From assembly GCF_000025305.1 (NCBI RefSeq), contig NC_013740.1, forward strand, positions 62,001 through 126,000: 64,000 nt of DNA, written 5' to 3'. Within the stretch, counting starts at the first letter, position 1. Every line of letters starts with the position of its first letter. The notes beneath the pieces are model-generated. The model saw only the letters and a program-made list of their open reading frames with translations, was not told where the DNA came from and ran no database searches. Positions 11,278 through 55,897 of the stretch are shown here, in pieces. Origin of the DNA: Acidaminococcus fermentans DSM 20731. Its GTDB lineage: Bacteria > Bacillota > Negativicutes > Acidaminococcales > Acidaminococcaceae. The translations under genes and the position numbers were made by a program.

Positions 11278-11329
11278 GTTAACTATACTAGAATACTAGG
11301 TTGACGAAATGCTTCATCTCCTGTATGGT
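11278..11329 (+). promoter_or_regulatory. BirA-type biotin operator and promoter of bioY
   Basis: Inverted half-sites GTTAACT (11278-11284) and GGTTGAC (11299-11305), 14 bases apart, resemble the Gram-positive BirA operator (GTTAACC..GGTTAAC). The right arm overlaps the -35 hexamer TTGACG (11301-11306), 17 bases before TATGGT (11324-11329). Biotinylated BirA would therefore block the promoter. birA itself is not in the window. Confidence 0.7.
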
Positions 11330-11360: not shown

Positions 11361-11903
11361 ATGCGTTTGCGTGAAATGGTGCTGTGCGGGCTGTTCATTG
11401 CCCTGGTGGCGGTGGGGGCCCTGATCCGGATCCCGGTGGGGAGCGATGTGTATACCCTGCAGTTCATGTTTACCCTTCTGGCCGGGCTCCTGCTGGGAGG
11501 ACGGCTGGGAGCCCTGGCGGTGGGGACCTATGTGCTCATGGGTCTGGTGGGGATCCCGGTGTTTGCGTCCGGGGGAGGGCCTTCCTATGTGCTCCAGCCC
11601 ACTTTCGGCTACCTGGTGGGCTTTACGGTCCAGGCCTGGGTCTGCGGGAAAATGGCCCGGCAGGGAGAGGGGGAAGTGACCCTGGGCCGGCTGCTGACCA
11701 TCAACCTGGTGGGGATGGTCATCGTCTATGTGCTGGGGATCAGCTATTTCTGGCTGTCGTCCAACTATCTGATCCAGGCGCCCATCGGCTTCTGGGCCGC
11801 CCTGTGGTACTGCGGGGTGCTCCAGGTGGTGCCGGATTTCCTTCTGTGCCTGGGAGCGGCCTTTGTGGGGCTCCGGTGCCGGAAGGCGGGGATCTGGGTG
11901 TGA
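11361..11903 (+). CDS. bioY: Biotin ECF transporter S component BioY
   Basis: A 180-residue membrane protein, the substrate-binding subunit for biotin uptake. It has six hydrophobic segments and BioY family marks: TLQFMFTLLAGLLLG (about 31-45), MGLVGIPVFASGGG and LQPTFGYLVGF (about 60-90). The ECF energising subunits (EcfA, EcfA', EcfT) are not nearby. GGAGGTGAAG fixes the ATG at 11361. The BirA operator immediately upstream supports biotin control. Confidence 0.93.
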   Translation: MRLREMVLCGLFIALVAVGALIRIPVGSDVYTLQFMFTLLAGLLLGGRLGALAVGTYVLMGLVGIPVFASGGGPSYVLQPTFGYLVGFTVQAWVCGKMARQGEGEVTLGRLLTINLVGMVIVYVLGISYFWLSSNYLIQAPIGFWAALWYCGVLQVVPDFLLCLGAAFVGLRCRKAGIWV

Positions 11904-12090: not shown

Positions 12091-12777
12091 ATGGGCAAAG
12101 CGATATTTGTTACGGGAACCGGAACGGATGTGGGAAAGACCTATGTGACCGGTCTTCTGGTGAAGAAGATCCGGGACGCCGGGTTGGACGGCAGCTATTA
12201 CAAGGCGGCCCTCAGCGGGGCGGAACCGGACGGGCAGGGGAATCTGGTGCCCGGGGATGCGGCCTGGGTGAAGGAAACGGCCGGGCTGAAGGATCCCCTG
12301 ACAGACCTGGTGACCTATGTGTACCGGGAAGCGGTGTCCCCCCATCTGGCGGCCCGGATCAACCACCGGCCGGTGGAACTGGAAACCATCCGGGAGGCCT
12401 TCCAAAAAGCCCGGGCGCGGCATGAGTATCTCACCATGGAAGGCAGCGGAGGCATCCTCTGTCCCCTTCGCTGGGACGAAAGGCAGCACCTGCTGCTGGA
12501 AGACATGATCCGGGCCCTGGACCTGGGCTGTCTCCTGGTGGCGGATGCCGGGCTGGGGACCATCAACAGCACGGTACTGACGGTGGAATACCTGCAGCAC
12601 CGGTCCATCCCCGTCCGGGGCATCCTGTTCAACCGGTGGAAACCCGGGGACCGGATGCAGGAAGACAACCGGGCCATGGTGGAAGAACTGACAGGCATCC
12701 CGGTGCTGGCCTGTGTGAAAGAAGGGGACCGGGAACTGGAAGGTCCCCTGGACGGACTGCTGGCAGCCTATGCATAA
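12091..12777 (+). CDS. bioD: Dethiobiotin synthetase
   Basis: A 228-residue ATP-dependent enzyme closing the ureido ring of 7,8-diaminopelargonate with CO2. The P-loop GTGTDVGKT lies at residues 8-16. The substrate lysine region YYKAALSG is near 36-43, the MEGSGGI motif near 115-121, and the C-terminal NRW motif that recognises the base is also present. Length is typical. AAGGAGAGAAAGGAAA precedes the ATG. Stop and bioA ribosome site overlap (TAAGGAG). Confidence 0.95.
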   Translation: MGKAIFVTGTGTDVGKTYVTGLLVKKIRDAGLDGSYYKAALSGAEPDGQGNLVPGDAAWVKETAGLKDPLTDLVTYVYREAVSPHLAARINHRPVELETIREAFQKARARHEYLTMEGSGGILCPLRWDERQHLLLEDMIRALDLGCLLVADAGLGTINSTVLTVEYLQHRSIPVRGILFNRWKPGDRMQEDNRAMVEELTGIPVLACVKEGDRELEGPLDGLLAAYA

Positions 12778-12787
12778 GGAGACGAAG

Positions 12788-14125
12788 ATGGAACACAAAA
12801 CAATGGAACAGCGGGACCTGGACCTGATCTGGCATCCCTGTTCTCAGATGAAAGATTACGAAACCCTGCCTCCCATGGTCATTGACCACGCCCAGGGAGT
12901 CTGGCTCTATGACATCCACGGGAAAGCCTATCTGGACATTGTCAGTTCCTGGTGGGCCAATCTGCTGGGCCACCGGAACCCGGTACTCAACGCACGGATC
13001 AAAAGCCAGCTGGACAAACTGGAACACGTGATCTTTGCCAATTTCACCCATGAACCGGCCATCACCCTGGCGGAACGGCTGAAGGTCCTGGTGCCGGAGG
13101 GTCTGTGCCGGTTCCAGTTCCACGACAACGGATCGGCGTCGGTGGAAGCGGCCCTGAAACTGTGTTTCCAGTACTGGGCCCAGACCGGGCACCCGGAAAA
13201 ACAGCGGTTCATGTGCCTGACGGAAGGGTACCACGGAGAAACCATCGGGGCCCTGTCCGTAGGGAGCATGGACCTGTTCGCCAAACTGTACCAGCCCATG
13301 ATGATGGACAACATCCATGTGGAAGCCCCGGACTGCTTCCGCTGCCCCTATGGCAAGGACCGGGATCACTGCCGGTGTGAATGTTTTGCCAAAGCGGAAG
13401 AAGCTTTTGTCCAGCACGGGAAGGAAACGGCGGCCATGATCGTGGAGCCCCTGCTCCAGGGCAGTGCCGGGATGCGGGTGTATCCGGCCCTGTATCTCCA
13501 GAAGCTCCGGGCCCTGTGCGATGCCTATGAGGTGAAGCTGATCGCCGACGAAATCGCCACCGGCTTCGGCCGCACCGGGACCCTGTTTGCCTGCGGCCAG
13601 GCGGGGATCACCCCGGATGTGATGTGCCTGTCCAAGGGGCTTACTGGAGGATACATGCCCATGTCACTGACGGTGACCAACCAGGAAATCTATGATGCGT
13701 TCTATGATGACTACGGCAAGCACAAAGCCTTCCTCCACAGCCACACCTATGCAGGGAATCCCCTGGGCTGTGCAGCGGCCCACGGGGTGCTGGACGTACT
13801 GGAACAGGACAGCATCCTGCCCCGGGCCCGGAAAATCGCCCAGTGGCTGACGGAAGAAATGGAAGCCCGGTTCGGGAACCATCCCCTGGTGGGGGAAATC
13901 CGCCACATCGGGCTGATCCACGCCCTGGAACTGGTGGCGGACAAAAAGACCAAAGCCCCCTTCCCGGCGGAAAAACGGCTGGGATACCAGTTCTACCGGA
14001 AAGCCCTGGAACGGGGGCTGGTGCTGCGGCCCCTGGGGGATGTGCTGTACTTCAATCCGCCCCTGACCATTACCCGGGGAGAGCTGACCCAGGCCATGGA
14101 CATCCTGGAACAGGTGCTGGCTTAA
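12788..14125 (+). CDS. bioA: Adenosylmethionine-8-amino-7-oxononanoate aminotransferase
   Basis: A 445-residue class III PLP aminotransferase making 7,8-diaminopelargonate. The N-terminal WHPCSQMKDYE and SSWWANLLGH motifs typical of BioA are present. So are DEIATGFGRTG with the PLP-binding Asp (about residues 255-265) and SKGLTGGYMP with the Schiff-base lysine (about 285). The start at 12788 has AAGGAG 7 bases upstream. It is coupled to bioD. No bioB, bioF or bioH is in the window, so pathway completeness is unknown. Confidence 0.95.
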   Translation: MEHKTMEQRDLDLIWHPCSQMKDYETLPPMVIDHAQGVWLYDIHGKAYLDIVSSWWANLLGHRNPVLNARIKSQLDKLEHVIFANFTHEPAITLAERLKVLVPEGLCRFQFHDNGSASVEAALKLCFQYWAQTGHPEKQRFMCLTEGYHGETIGALSVGSMDLFAKLYQPMMMDNIHVEAPDCFRCPYGKDRDHCRCECFAKAEEAFVQHGKETAAMIVEPLLQGSAGMRVYPALYLQKLRALCDAYEVKLIADEIATGFGRTGTLFACGQAGITPDVMCLSKGLTGGYMPMSLTVTNQEIYDAFYDDYGKHKAFLHSHTYAGNPLGCAAAHGVLDVLEQDSILPRARKIAQWLTEEMEARFGNHPLVGEIRHIGLIHALELVADKKTKAPFPAEKRLGYQFYRKALERGLVLRPLGDVLYFNPPLTITRGELTQAMDILEQVLA

Positions 14126-14130
14126 AGAAG

Positions 14131-14181
14131 GTAAACCTAAAATAATACAAGGTTGACACAAAACGGGCGGCGGTCTATAAT
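14131..14181 (+). promoter_or_regulatory. Second BirA-type operator with a consensus promoter
   Basis: GTAAACC (14131-14137) and GGTTGAC (14151-14157) form an inverted pair with a 13-base spacer, the spacing of the B. subtilis bio operator. The right arm overlaps TTGACA (14153-14158), which is 17 bases before TATAAT (14176-14181). It lies immediately downstream of bioA and points away from it. Confidence 0.7.
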
Positions 14182-14187
14182 GGAACC

Positions 14188-14295
14188 ATCGGATTCAACG
14201 AGCCTGATTTCGTCCTGGTCCGTCCCTCCGGATCAGCCTCATGAGAAACTCCCAGAAGGAGCTGCTGTACTTTTCTGTGCAGCAGCTCCTTTTTC
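14188..14295 (+). ncRNA. Candidate biotin-regulated small RNA or leader
   Basis: About 108 bases between the predicted start of the BirA-overlapped promoter (about 14188) and a strong intrinsic terminator (stem AAGGAGCTGCTG / CAGCAGCTCCTT, 14256-14291, then TTTTT). No ribosome site followed by a credible small coding frame is visible. Either a stand-alone small RNA or an attenuated leader of the M24 peptidase gene 50 bases further on. No similarity to a known RNA family is recognised. Confidence 0.4.
14256..14295 (+). terminator. Intrinsic terminator of the candidate small RNA
   Basis: Twelve-base-pair GC-rich stem with a short loop followed by TTTTTCG. It lies upstream of the M24 peptidase gene, so it ends the short transcript or attenuates the next gene. 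Confidence 0.8.
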
Positions 14296-14346
14296 GTGGT
14301 AAGATGGGGGAGCATTACTTTGGAAGACAACAGGAGGAAAAATCCC

Positions 14347-15582
14347 ATGACCATTCTGGAACATGATATCCTGATCAGTGAAGATCTGCGCCGGGTGCCC
14401 CGGGAAGAACTGGAGAACCGGCTGGAACGGCTGCGGGAGACCCTGACCCAACAGGATCCCGGCTGGCAGATGGCGGTGATCACGGACAAACTGGACATGT
14501 ATTATTTTACCGGCACCATGCAGGAAGGGGCCTTTATGGTCCGTCCCCAGGACGCCATCCTGTGGGTGCGCCGGAGCCTGGCCCGGGCCCTCAACGAGAG
14601 TCTGCTGCCGGAAGGCTGGATCCGCCGGATGCACAGCTACCGGCAGCCGGCAGAATATTACGGGGAAAATCTGCCCCGGGAAGTGTACCTGGACGAAAAA
14701 CACACGTCCCTGGAATGGCTCCGGTTCTTCCGGAAGTATTTTCCCTTTGAAGCCCGGAAAAACCTGGACCAAGTGCTGGGGCGCCTGCGCAGTGTGAAAA
14801 GCGACTACGAACTGGCTCTTCTGGCCCGGAGCGGACAGATCCACGGGGATGTGCTGATGCAGGAGGCACCGGTGTTCCTGAAGGTGGGGATCAGCGAGGC
14901 AGAACTGGCCATCCAGCTGTATCTCCGGATGGTGCTGAAGGGCAGCCAGGGGGTGGCCCGGACCAACCGGCCCACCGGGGAAGACGCCATCGGCCTGGCT
15001 TCTTTCGGGAAAAGCGCCCTGGTGCGGACGGCTTTTGACGGCCCCGGGGGCACCAGCGGCACCTGCGTGGCGGTCCAGAGCATCGGATCGGCCTTCCGGC
15101 TGCTGAAACCGGGCCGGCTGGTGTACCTGGACATCCCCTGCGGAGTGGACGGGTACAATACGGATAAAACCGTGGTGTACTATTTCGGGGATCTGGACCG
15201 GGATCCGGCCAAAGAAGAGATCCTCCGGGCCTACAATTACTGTCTGGAACTGGAAAAACAGACGATGGCCCTGCTGAAGCCCGGTGCCGTACTGGGAGAA
15301 ATCTATGATACGGTCATGGAGGACTTCGATCCCTACTATGAAAAGATGTTCATGAACGGGGGCCGGTTCCTGGGCCACAGCATCGGCATGTGCATGGACG
15401 AGACCCCGGTGATTGCCGGCGGGGTCAAAGACCGGGTGGAGGAAAACATGGTCTTTGCGGTGGAACCCAAAATCGCCCTGCCGGGCCTGGGGATGGTGGG
15501 GACGGAAAACACCTACCGGATCGGACCGGAGGGACCGGTATGCCTGACGGGGGGATCCCAGCCTCTGCGGGTTGTCCGTTGA
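14347..15582 (+). CDS. M24 family (Xaa-Pro) metallopeptidase
   Basis: A 411-residue pita-bread-fold protein. The N-terminal creatinase-like domain covers residues 1-150 and the catalytic domain 155-400. Metal ligands are visible: Asp in LDIPCGVDGYNTD, His in FLGHSIGM, Glu in AVEPKIALPG and Glu in GTENTYR. It likely cleaves X-Pro dipeptides or a related amide, but M24 also includes non-peptidase members. AGGAGG sets the start at 14347. It sits behind the BirA-controlled promoter and terminator. Confidence 0.87.
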   Translation: MTILEHDILISEDLRRVPREELENRLERLRETLTQQDPGWQMAVITDKLDMYYFTGTMQEGAFMVRPQDAILWVRRSLARALNESLLPEGWIRRMHSYRQPAEYYGENLPREVYLDEKHTSLEWLRFFRKYFPFEARKNLDQVLGRLRSVKSDYELALLARSGQIHGDVLMQEAPVFLKVGISEAELAIQLYLRMVLKGSQGVARTNRPTGEDAIGLASFGKSALVRTAFDGPGGTSGTCVAVQSIGSAFRLLKPGRLVYLDIPCGVDGYNTDKTVVYYFGDLDRDPAKEEILRAYNYCLELEKQTMALLKPGAVLGEIYDTVMEDFDPYYEKMFMNGGRFLGHSIGMCMDETPVIAGGVKDRVEENMVFAVEPKIALPGLGMVGTENTYRIGPEGPVCLTGGSQPLRVVR

Positions 15583-24268: not shown

Positions 24269-25237
24269 GTGAAATTTGTGCTGAGTATGCCTCTAGCTCC
24301 GGCGGGCATGGAAATGATGAAAAAACTGGGCATCCAATGGGAAGTGGGTCCCGGGATAAACTGGGAAGCCTATCCGGATGCTCTTTTGGAAAGCGCTGAT
24401 GCACTGATCATCCGGCTGGAAAAATGTCCGGAATCCGTCCTCCGCCGGTGCCGGAACCTGAAGGTGCTGGGCCGTCCGGGGATGGGCTTTGAAAACGTCC
24501 CGGTGGACTGGTGTACGGAACGGGGCATCCCGGTGGTGCTGGCTCCCGGAGCCAACGCCCGGAGCGTGGCGGAACATGCCCTGGCCCTGATTTTTGCCTG
24601 TGCCAAGGATCTGAAGGAAATGGATGAGGAGAACCGGAAGGGGAACTGGGGGATCCGGGCCCAGGGAAAACAGATGGAGCTGGCGGGCAAAACCGTGGGC
24701 ATTGTGGGGGTGGGCGGCATCGGCAGCCTGCTGGCAGGGATGTGCCGGGCTCTGGGCATGGAATGCATCGGCTGGAGCCATTCCCACAACCGGGCCCGGG
24801 TGGAGGCCGCCGGCTGCCGGTATGTGGAGACCCTGGAAGAAGTGCTCCGGACCAGTGATTTCGTGTCCCTGCACATTCCCCTGCTGCCTTCCACCCGGCA
24901 CTGCATCGGCGCCCGGGAGCTGTCCCTGATGAAACCCACCGCTTTCCTCATCAACACGGCCCGGGGTGCGGTGGTGGACGAACAGGCCCTGGCGGATGCG
25001 GTGAACCAGGGGGTGATCGCCGGAGCCGGGGTGGATGTGTACGGAACGGAACCGGCGGTCCTGGACAATCCGGTATTCACCGCTCCCCGAATCCTCTGCA
25101 CGCCCCACAGTGCGGCCCTGACCCCGGACTCCTGGGCCCGGATGGCCTGCGGCGCCGTGGAAGGCTGTTATGCCGTGTGCCAGGGGAAGGAATGGCCGGG
25201 GGTGGCCAATCCGGAGGTGTGGAAGAAAAAATCTTGA
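24269..25237 (+). CDS. D-isomer-specific 2-hydroxyacid dehydrogenase
   Basis: A 322-residue NAD(P)-dependent dehydrogenase of the phosphoglycerate/glyoxylate reductase group. The Rossmann motif GVGGIGS is near residue 150. The catalytic Arg is in NTARGAVVDE (about 230), Glu in YGTEP (about 262) and His in CTPHSAAL (about 280). It starts with GTG at 24269, 8 bases after AAGGAGG. Possible substrates include glyoxylate, hydroxypyruvate or 2-oxoacids. It precedes the EIIC-like gene but that has its own promoter. Confidence 0.85.
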   Translation: MKFVLSMPLAPAGMEMMKKLGIQWEVGPGINWEAYPDALLESADALIIRLEKCPESVLRRCRNLKVLGRPGMGFENVPVDWCTERGIPVVLAPGANARSVAEHALALIFACAKDLKEMDEENRKGNWGIRAQGKQMELAGKTVGIVGVGGIGSLLAGMCRALGMECIGWSHSHNRARVEAAGCRYVETLEEVLRTSDFVSLHIPLLPSTRHCIGARELSLMKPTAFLINTARGAVVDEQALADAVNQGVIAGAGVDVYGTEPAVLDNPVFTAPRILCTPHSAALTPDSWARMACGAVEGCYAVCQGKEWPGVANPEVWKKKS

Positions 25238-53608: not shown

Positions 53609-55897
53609 ATGGTTGAACTGATCCATGAGGGAGTTTATTACAGGGACGGACAGCTGCTGACGGAGGCAGAACTGGCCGCCCAGGGTGTCAAGGCTGACAG
53701 GGACGGGGGTACCCGGAAGACCCTGGCCTATCAGGTGCTGAAAGCCCATCAGCAGGGCGAAGGGATGGACGATCTCCATCTGAAATTCGATGCCCTGACC
53801 AGCCACGACATTACCTATGTGGGAATCATCCAGACGGCCATCGCCAGCGGCCTGGACCATTTCCCCGTTCCCTACATCCTGACCAACTGCCACAACAGCC
53901 TGGCTGCCGTAGGGGGCACCATCAACGAGGACGACCACGTTTTCGGGCTGTCTGCGGTGAAACGGTTCGGCGGTCAGTATGTGCCGCCCCATATGGCAGT
54001 CATCCATGAATATATGCGGGAAAAAATGGCCGGCGGCGGGAAAATGATCCTGGGCTCCGACAGCCACACCCGGTACGGCGCCTTCGGGACCATGGCCATC
54101 GGGGAAGGGGGACCGGAACTGGTGAAACAGCTCCTGGGCCATACCTATGATGTCCAGCGGCCCCAGGTGATCGCCATTTATCTGAAAGGGAAGCCCCGTC
54201 ATGGGGTGGGGCCCCAGGATGTGGCCCTGGCCATTGAAAAGGCCGTGTTCAAAAACGGCTTTGTGAAGAACAAGGTGATGGAATTCATGGGCCCCGGCAT
54301 TGCAGGGCTGTCCATGGACTTCCGGAACGGCATCGATGTGATGACCACGGAAACCACCTGCCTGACCACCATCTGGTCCACGGACACCACCGTGAAGGAC
54401 TACCTGGAACTTCACCGCCGCCCGGAAGCCTACCGGGAAATGAAACCCGGCGATCTGGCATACTATGACGGAGCCGTGGTGGTGGATCTGGACAAAGTGG
54501 AATCCATGATCGCCATGCCCTTCCATCCCAGCCATGTGTACACCATCAAAGAGCTGAACGAAGGGGGCCGGGACCTGCTGGAAGAAATCGAAAAGCAGGC
54601 GGTGGATATGCTGGACAACAAGGAGTTGTCCCTGGGTCTGGCGGACAAGTACTATGACGGGAAGATGCACTGTGACCAGGGTCTGATCGCCGGCTGCTCC
54701 GGCGGTCTGTACGAAAACCTGGTGGCGGCGGCTCACATCCTGAAGGGCAGGAGCATCGGCAATGAACGGTTTGCCTTCAGTGTGTATCCTTCCAGCCATC
54801 CCATCTACATGGAACTGATGCGCAATGGCGCCCTGGCAGATCTGATGGATGCCGGTGCCGTGGTCCGGTCCGCATTCTGCGGTCCCTGCTTCGGGGCCGG
54901 GGATACTCCCAACAACAAGGGCTTCAGTGTACGGCACACCACCCGGAACTTCCCCAACCGGGAAGGGAGCAAGCCCGGCAAGGGACAGATCGCTTCCGTG
55001 GCCCTGATGGATGCCCGGAGCGTGGCTGCCACCGCAGCCAACCATGGGGCGCTGACTCCGGCCACGGAGGTGGAATACGACGACAGCGTGCCCGCCTACC
55101 ATTACGACAGCCTGCCCTATGACCACAAGGTTTTCGACGGGATCGGTCAGCCGGACAAAAAAGAAGAGCTGGTGTACGGTCCTTCCATCAAACCCTGGCC
55201 TTCCATTGAAAAACTCAATGAAAATGTGCTGCTGAAAGTGGCTGCCTGGATCGATGATCCGGTGACCACCACCGATGAACTGATCCCCTCCGGGGAAACT
55301 TCTTCCTACCGGAGCGACCCCTATGCCCTCAGTGAATTTGCCCTGAGCCGGAAGGTGCCGGAATATGTGGGTCGGGCCAAAGCCGTCCGGACCCTGGAAA
55401 AAGCCCGGCAGGAAGGGGAAAACTGTGAAGAACTGAACAATATGTATGATTCCGTAAAAAATGCTCTGGGTTTGCAGGAATCGGCTGACCAGATGAAGAA
55501 AAATACATCTGTAGGTTCCGTGGTCTATGCCAACAAACCCGGTGACGGTTCCGCACGGGAACAGGCCGCTTCCTGTCAGCGGGTGCTGGGAGGCGCCGCC
55601 AACATTGCCCTGGAATATGCCACCAAACGGTATCGGAGCAATGTGATGAACTGGGGGATGCTGCCCTTCCTGACCTCTTATGACGATTCCCGGAAACTGG
55701 CAGTGGGAGACCTGGTCTATGTCCCCAATGTTCGGGAAATCCTCCTGGGAGATACGGATGAATACAAAGGCTTCATTGTCCGGGACGGAAAGAAAGTGGG
55801 AGAAATCGCCCTGCACCTGGGTGCAGTGGAACCTTCCCAGAAAGAGATCCTGGCTGCAGGCTGTCTGATCAATTACTACGCAGGCAGCAAAAAATAA
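53609..55897 (+). CDS. Aconitase-family hydratase (YbhJ-like)
   Basis: A 762-residue Fe-S hydratase of the aconitase superfamily. The N-terminal domains have SDSHTRYGAFGTMAIGEGGPE (about residues 148-168). Cluster cysteines are expected in LIAGCSGGLYENL (about 365) and FCGPCFGAGDTP (CxxC, about 428). A C-terminal swivel domain has GGAANIALEYATKRYRSNVMNWG (about 660-680). It resembles the putative hydratase YbhJ more than housekeeping AcnA. The actual substrate (citrate, 2-methylcitrate or another tricarboxylate) is unknown. It is followed by a CitMHS transporter. Confidence 0.85.
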   Translation: MVELIHEGVYYRDGQLLTEAELAAQGVKADRDGGTRKTLAYQVLKAHQQGEGMDDLHLKFDALTSHDITYVGIIQTAIASGLDHFPVPYILTNCHNSLAAVGGTINEDDHVFGLSAVKRFGGQYVPPHMAVIHEYMREKMAGGGKMILGSDSHTRYGAFGTMAIGEGGPELVKQLLGHTYDVQRPQVIAIYLKGKPRHGVGPQDVALAIEKAVFKNGFVKNKVMEFMGPGIAGLSMDFRNGIDVMTTETTCLTTIWSTDTTVKDYLELHRRPEAYREMKPGDLAYYDGAVVVDLDKVESMIAMPFHPSHVYTIKELNEGGRDLLEEIEKQAVDMLDNKELSLGLADKYYDGKMHCDQGLIAGCSGGLYENLVAAAHILKGRSIGNERFAFSVYPSSHPIYMELMRNGALADLMDAGAVVRSAFCGPCFGAGDTPNNKGFSVRHTTRNFPNREGSKPGKGQIASVALMDARSVAATAANHGALTPATEVEYDDSVPAYHYDSLPYDHKVFDGIGQPDKKEELVYGPSIKPWPSIEKLNENVLLKVAAWIDDPVTTTDELIPSGETSSYRSDPYALSEFALSRKVPEYVGRAKAVRTLEKARQEGENCEELNNMYDSVKNALGLQESADQMKKNTSVGSVVYANKPGDGSAREQAASCQRVLGGAANIALEYATKRYRSNVMNWGMLPFLTSYDDSRKLAVGDLVYVPNVREILLGDTDEYKGFIVRDGKKVGEIALHLGAVEPSQKEILAAGCLINYYAGSKK

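Follow-up and report, generated by a model that had tools for sequence, protein, structure and literature searches.

A predicted small RNA behind a BirA-type operator, between bioA and an M24 peptidase gene of Acidaminococcus fermentans

Gene order and sequence features

The window analysed here is the whole stretch of 64,000 nucleotides from Acidaminococcus fermentans DSM 20731, whose genome (G000) is one contig of 2,329,769 bases; the other genomes of the genus Acidaminococcus are designated G001 to G008. The end of an rRNA operon, with a partial 23S rRNA and a complete 5S rRNA, occupies positions 1-888. The locus of interest has the order DUF1653 gene, bioY, bioD, bioA, a unit composed of operator, promoter, RNA and terminator, and an M24 peptidase gene, and all of its features given below are on the forward strand. 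The bioY gene (11361-11903) was assigned by Pfam BioY (PF02632, 123 bits), bioD (12091-12777) and bioA (12770-14125) by TIGR00347 and TIGR00508 with scores above the cut-offs, and the M24 metallopeptidase gene (14347-15582) by PF00557 (96.8 bits). A BirA-type operator before bioY, GTTAACT-N14-GGTTGAC (11278-11305), read from the sequence, served as a comparison site; its right arm overlaps a promoter-like TTGACG-N17-TATGGT.

The unit begins 6 nt beyond the end of bioA at 14125 with a second BirA-type operator, GTAAACC-N13-GGTTGAC (14131-14157), identified by pattern match. Its right arm overlaps the minus-35 element TTGACA (14153-14158), which is followed, after a 17-nt spacer, by the minus-10 element TATAAT (14176-14181), both found in a promoter scan. 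The predicted small RNA of about 108 nt (14188-14295) was given its start from the distance to the minus-10, and sequence conservation also starts approximately there. Within it lie hairpin 1 (14215-14236; 8 pairs, every position paired in four species) with the loop UCCCUC at 14223-14228, the linker CTCATGAGAA (14238-14247), which a pairing search found to be the complement of UUCUCAUGAG in the start region of gcdC, and an intrinsic terminator (14258-14294), recognized by sequence, fold and alignment. The terminator has a 13-bp core stem (14258-14270 with 14277-14289), a 6-nt loop and the run TTTTT at 14290-14294. The consensus terminator scans of the window do not list it, presumably because the stem reaches into the T run. 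Farther on, an extended minus-10-like TGGTAAGAT (14297-14305), missing from both promoter scans, is a possible peptidase promoter by likeness only, with no minus-35 assigned; the same element occurs in G003 and G007, and TGGTACACT takes its place in G005.

BirA is a single protein that attaches biotin and represses the genes of biotin synthesis and import, and its operators in E. coli (bioO), B. subtilis and S. aureus are inverted repeats of the GTWAACC/GGTTNAC kind located at the promoter. Profile searches found one protein with a biotin ligase domain in G000, and the same protein bears a helix-turn-helix domain (HTH_11). A bioY-like frame, so called by likeness, follows birA on the same strand (L019:578-1138). 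The unit resembles the known operators of the BirA regulon in having an inverted repeat at the promoter and a DNA-binding BirA in the same genome, and differs in that the promoter would drive a short terminated RNA and not a biotin gene.

The initial annotation had described a near-perfect BirA-like operator over the minus-35 of a consensus promoter, and this holds on direct reading: the promoter agrees with the consensus at all 12 positions, and a search for the operator together with the minus-10 gives one match in the window and none in 200 shuffles of it. GTWAACC-N12-16-GGTTNAC likewise matches once in the window, compared with two matches in total across 200 dinucleotide shuffles. With three mismatches allowed, the exact operator pattern gives 10 matches where 4.5 are expected, so that the strict operator match alone is informative. 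On sequence grounds, the site at 14131-14157 looks like a genuine BirA-type operator. The strong terminator about 108 bases downstream, described in the same annotation, was also read (14258-14294, closing a predicted RNA of 108 nt), as was the position of the unit downstream of bioA and before no biotin gene, the M24 gene being next.

BirA-type sites in related genomes

GTWAACC-N12-16-GGTTNAC was found in 40 of 59 genomes of the family, where the reversed control also matched (about two dozen in all). The directed pattern of operator plus minus-10 was more discriminating, with 60 matches in 63 genomes of the order (summed over rows; 54 sites once overlapping minus-10 readings are merged) versus one in the reversed-pattern control. 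A narrower pattern of this kind matched in 56 of 260 genomes of the class, with zero in the control columns. We classified 76 distinct sites, drawn from part of the matching loci and counting a gene match within 250 nt. Fifty-nine of these precede bioY-type genes (25), bioB (12), bioD (7), ecfA (7) or a recurrent unnamed gene (8), five are the Acidaminococcus units before the M24 gene, and the remaining 12 had no reference match and were inspected singly. Contig ends cut off L053 and L063, and also L092, though its final bases resemble the start of bioD; a bioY-like frame starts about 370 nt past the site of L194; the gene behind L087 is bioW; and the proteins behind L086, L097, L103, L107, L109, L112 and L204 look alike by eye. 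Fragments of the L103 and L112 proteins had no match in Pfam, apart from sub-threshold DUF4022 and ECF_trnsprt. The overlap of operator and minus-35, correctly noted at the A. fermentans site, is therefore no peculiarity of it, being common among the BirA-type sites of the family; what is exceptional is the absence of a gene of the biotin kind behind the unit.

Several other sites drew our attention. Six loci of one genus (g2; L056, L057, L058, L079, L083, L084) have a BirA-type operator before an unnamed protein of 177 residues, which is possibly an unrecognised biotin-pathway gene; its first 70 residues had no Pfam match. By eye, the start of this protein resembles a MaoC-like frame of G000 (sub-threshold Pfam match), which lies directly upstream of a second bioY and has a perfect palindromic BirA-type operator within it (L013:1501-1528; G000:C1:436342-436369). 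The operator lies inside the MaoC-like frame in three species (G000 L013, G005 L017, G007 L018). The truncated site L053 (G012:C5:28785-28937), from another genus, has an operator, a minus-10, a C/U-rich stretch and a hairpin, with the contig ending 103 nt past the minus-10. It was left uncounted as a second orphan RNA unit, the contig being short and the hairpin having no clear T run, and it may be the leader of a biotin gene beyond the contig end. The pairing of its RNA with the accB and pyruvate carboxylase starts of its own genome was unremarkable: out of 1000 shuffles, 954 and 573, respectively, did as well.

Conservation within the genus

The initial annotation had proposed a comparison of relatives for conserved promoter, terminator and covarying structure. 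The unit is kept in five of the nine genomes of the genus (G000, G003, G005, G007, G008), with its promoter and terminator, and in all five the M24 gene is its immediate downstream neighbour. Of the eight genomes of the genus that have this peptidase, three (G002, G004, G006) have the gene with no unit upstream; the peptidase match of G001 is weak only. On the M24 tree, the five genomes with the unit group together in a single branch of moderate support (91/87). In G008, the operator, promoter, RNA and terminator follow a frame resembling the DUF1653 gene, and bioYDA does not precede them.

Between G000 and G007, the RNA is identical at 102 of 109 positions (94%) and the non-coding flanks at 37 of 74 (50%; Fisher p 1e-11). 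The identity jump falls at the predicted RNA start: the operator has 23 of 27 positions identical, the promoter spacer 8 of 17, the minus-10 6 of 6 and the next six bases 1 of 6, and the gap up to the Shine-Dalgarno sequence of the peptidase gene has 20 of 34. The contrast between RNA and flanks is smaller in G003 (98/109 versus 53/74, p 0.0015) and G005 (80/114 versus 34/74, p 0.0008), yet it holds.

The RNA (14188-14295) folds at -45.7 kcal/mol, whereas its shuffles average -26.5 (z -6.1; 0 of 200 shuffles as low), a difference mostly due to the terminator. The UCCCUC loop of hairpin 1 is invariant in the four aligned species (G000, G003, G005, G007), and two pairs of the stem are changed on both sides. 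The covariation is weak: 31 of 500 shuffles reach as high a value, and with only four alignable sequences, all close relatives, the two-sided changes are suggestive only. The G008 RNA is not alignable, but here too CCCUC sits in a hairpin loop. CCCUC is unpaired with a probability of 0.97-1.00 in G000, G003, G007 and G008 (0.97 in G008) and of 0.43 in G005, where some loop bases are paired when the sequence is folded by itself. An invariant loop of this kind would fit base pairing of the RNA with Shine-Dalgarno sequences.

No Rfam family matched the RNA at gathering level; the eight matches at E up to 1 are all far under the gathering scores, and none is credible. In a search of 59 family genomes with a covariance model (R1) of the four RNAs, these four score 98-132 bits; among the matches listed, the others reach at most 44 bits, several on the terminator part only, and the G008 RNA is absent.

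Candidate targets

In the sodium-pumping glutaconyl-CoA decarboxylase, GcdC is the subunit that carries biotin, and by gcdC we mean here a frame of 145 residues with a biotinyl domain beside gcdB. It is the one protein that the Pfam biotinyl search finds in G000 (83 bits), although G000 has a second gcdB-like gene, because of which a biotin carrier may have been missed by the search. The same search finds one protein in G005 and a second match below the cut-off in G007; G003 and G008 have further biotinyl matches, including one frame, about 1,157 residues long, with a start like that of pyruvate carboxylase. In A. fermentans, according to PMC3035267, gcdB, gcdC and gcdD make up a second operon; the text of the same paper assigns the role of biotin carrier to gcdA.

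The four fermentans-group species have one and the same gcdC start region, GGAGGGTATTCTCATGAG, and that of G008 is different. A perfect match of 7-10 nt between RNA and gcdC exists in all five species, in the linker in four of them and near the predicted 5' end of the RNA in G008 (9 nt, AGAAAACCC with GGGUUUUCU). We compared the longest Watson-Crick run between the RNA and positions -25 to +15 of gcdC with mononucleotide shuffles, a statistic chosen after the matches had been seen and one for which the four fermentans-group results are not mutually independent: the run was equalled in 5 of 3000 shuffles for G000 (10 nt), 6 for G005 (9 nt), 10 for G008 (9 nt), 66 for G003 (8 nt) and 308 for G007 (7 nt). 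By pairing energy against dinucleotide shuffles, the counts were 29 of 1000 for G000, 130 for G007, 175 for G003, 153 for G005 and 289 for G008, and in G003, G005 and G007 the most favourable pairing joined the loop CCCUCC to GGAGGG. The two tests disagree, and gcdC is therefore rated a lead only. Simultaneous pairing of loop and linker with gcdC was rejected, since loop and linker do not follow each other in the order that a simple antiparallel duplex would require, and the two would be alternatives.

Start regions were taken from rough gene calling, and the comparison of targets covered limited sets from G000. By energy, gcdC ranked second among 65 start regions, below an aconitase-family gene (53609-55897), and none of the 51 start regions from the window had a perfect match longer than 8 nt. 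GGAGGG occurs in two of these 51, namely those of the aconitase-family gene and of a gene for a 2-hydroxyacid dehydrogenase (24269-25237), which are possible targets too because the former outranks gcdC. The Shine-Dalgarno context of both, GGAGGGAC, is an 8-nt perfect complement of GUCCCUCC in the RNA. The pyruvate-carboxylase-like starts match the RNA over 8 nt in G008 and 5 nt in G003, as run lengths with no shuffle comparison.

Discussion

The operator, promoter, terminator, conservation and loop were found by computation, together with a BirA that has a DNA-binding domain. That a BirA-type operator drives a conserved, terminated and apparently non-coding RNA is well supported at the level of sequence, and it is likely that this RNA is a trans-acting small RNA. 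With moderate confidence, we take the locus to belong to the BirA regulon as the gene of a small RNA that would act in trans and be made under biotin shortage. When biotin is sufficient, BirA with biotinyl-AMP would bind 14131-14157, cover the minus-35 and shut the promoter. In shortage, the operator would be free, the RNA of about 108 nt would run from about 14188 to the terminator, and derepressed bioYDA transcripts would end at the same terminator. The RNA would then act by base pairing, its C-rich UCCCUC loop being suited to Shine-Dalgarno sequences such as GGAGGG. Of the biotin-responsive small RNA that had been suggested earlier, the small RNA has gained ground from the operator, the conserved body, loop and terminator, the loss of the reading frame in G005 and the presence of the unit in G008 away from bioYDA; its responsiveness to biotin may be expected from the operator and BirA.

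A more specific proposal is that the RNA spares biotin: under shortage BirA would free the promoter, and the RNA would block translation of gcdC, so that a main consumer of biotin would no longer be made. We regard this as tentative and, on present evidence, unlikely.

Several other explanations were weighed. The unit could simply be the 3' end of bioYDA, in which the terminator matters, the operator and promoter are left over or serve as a second BirA roadblock, and the body of the RNA has no function. No terminator for bioYDA transcripts lies ahead of 14258-14294, and several sites of the family carry two operators. However, the part of the RNA ahead of the terminator is conserved as much as the terminator itself, the minus-10 is kept while the spacer and the following bases vary, and G008 keeps the unit without bioYDA. 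We consider this account improbable, if still one to be reckoned with.

An attenuated leader of the M24 gene, as suggested in the initial annotation, would have a BirA-controlled promoter and a conditional terminator that sets read-through. The constant position before the M24 gene, even in G008 without bioYDA, speaks for it, but folding gave no competing, mutually exclusive antiterminator: forbidding the pairs of the terminator leaves a best fold of -15.3 kcal/mol, and removing the last 20 bases leaves one of -19.9 kcal/mol, versus -45.7 for the whole. Promoter-like elements also lie between the terminator and the gene (TGGTAAGAT in G000, G003 and G007; TTGCTT-N17-TATGAT in G008), the gene occurs without the unit in G002, G004 and G006, and we know of no link between this M24 peptidase and biotin. 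The suggestion did not stand up well, and we give it a low probability.

That the short transcript codes for a small protein or leader peptide is very improbable. An ATG at 14241 opens MRNSQKELLY, common to G000, G003 and G007, and the three base changes in these codons are all synonymous in the alignment, but no Shine-Dalgarno sequence was seen ahead of it, the frame runs on through the terminator and diverges past these ten codons, and G005 does not preserve it (MRINPSGAVA). The body of the RNA is thus conserved without a conserved reading frame, the ten codons being confined to three close species. Least credible, with hardly any weight in our view, is a site that titrates or senses BirA without a functional transcript, for which the operator within the MaoC-like frame upstream of the second bioY is a parallel and which leaves the consensus promoter and conserved RNA unexplained.

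If the unit is indeed a small-RNA gene under BirA control, it has relatives in kind. RyhB is a small RNA under Fur, a nutrient repressor for iron; the present RNA, compared by description, would likewise be repressor-controlled and expected in nutrient shortage, with a conceivable sparing role, and differs in having biotin in place of iron and targets that are candidates. RsaE and RoxS are C-rich anti-Shine-Dalgarno RNAs of Firmicutes; as in them, its UCCC-type loop is accessible and its terminator is intrinsic, but it has no Rfam match at gathering level. MicL and DapZ are 3'-UTR small RNAs with their own promoter; the unit has a promoter at the operon end and a shared terminator as they do, except that in G008 it does not follow a bio operon. 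The initial annotation knew of no small RNA described as BirA-controlled in this lineage, and the open-licence literature agrees: we found there no experimentally supported BirA-controlled small RNA, which is no proof of absence, and no small RNAs of Acidaminococcus. The only precedent found there is computational: PMC5826253 (Table 3 and text) gives BirA motifs for sRNA207 and RNAIII of S. aureus, with no binding test reported alongside. As described there, these are small RNAs with a computed BirA motif near the promoter, as here, and the likeness is one of motif and description.

A BirA-controlled RNA, if true, would add a post-transcriptional arm to biotin control, as a vitamin counterpart of the iron-sparing RNAs. 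Acidaminococcus, a gut bacterium that depends on a biotin-dependent sodium pump, would offer a setting for such an RNA.
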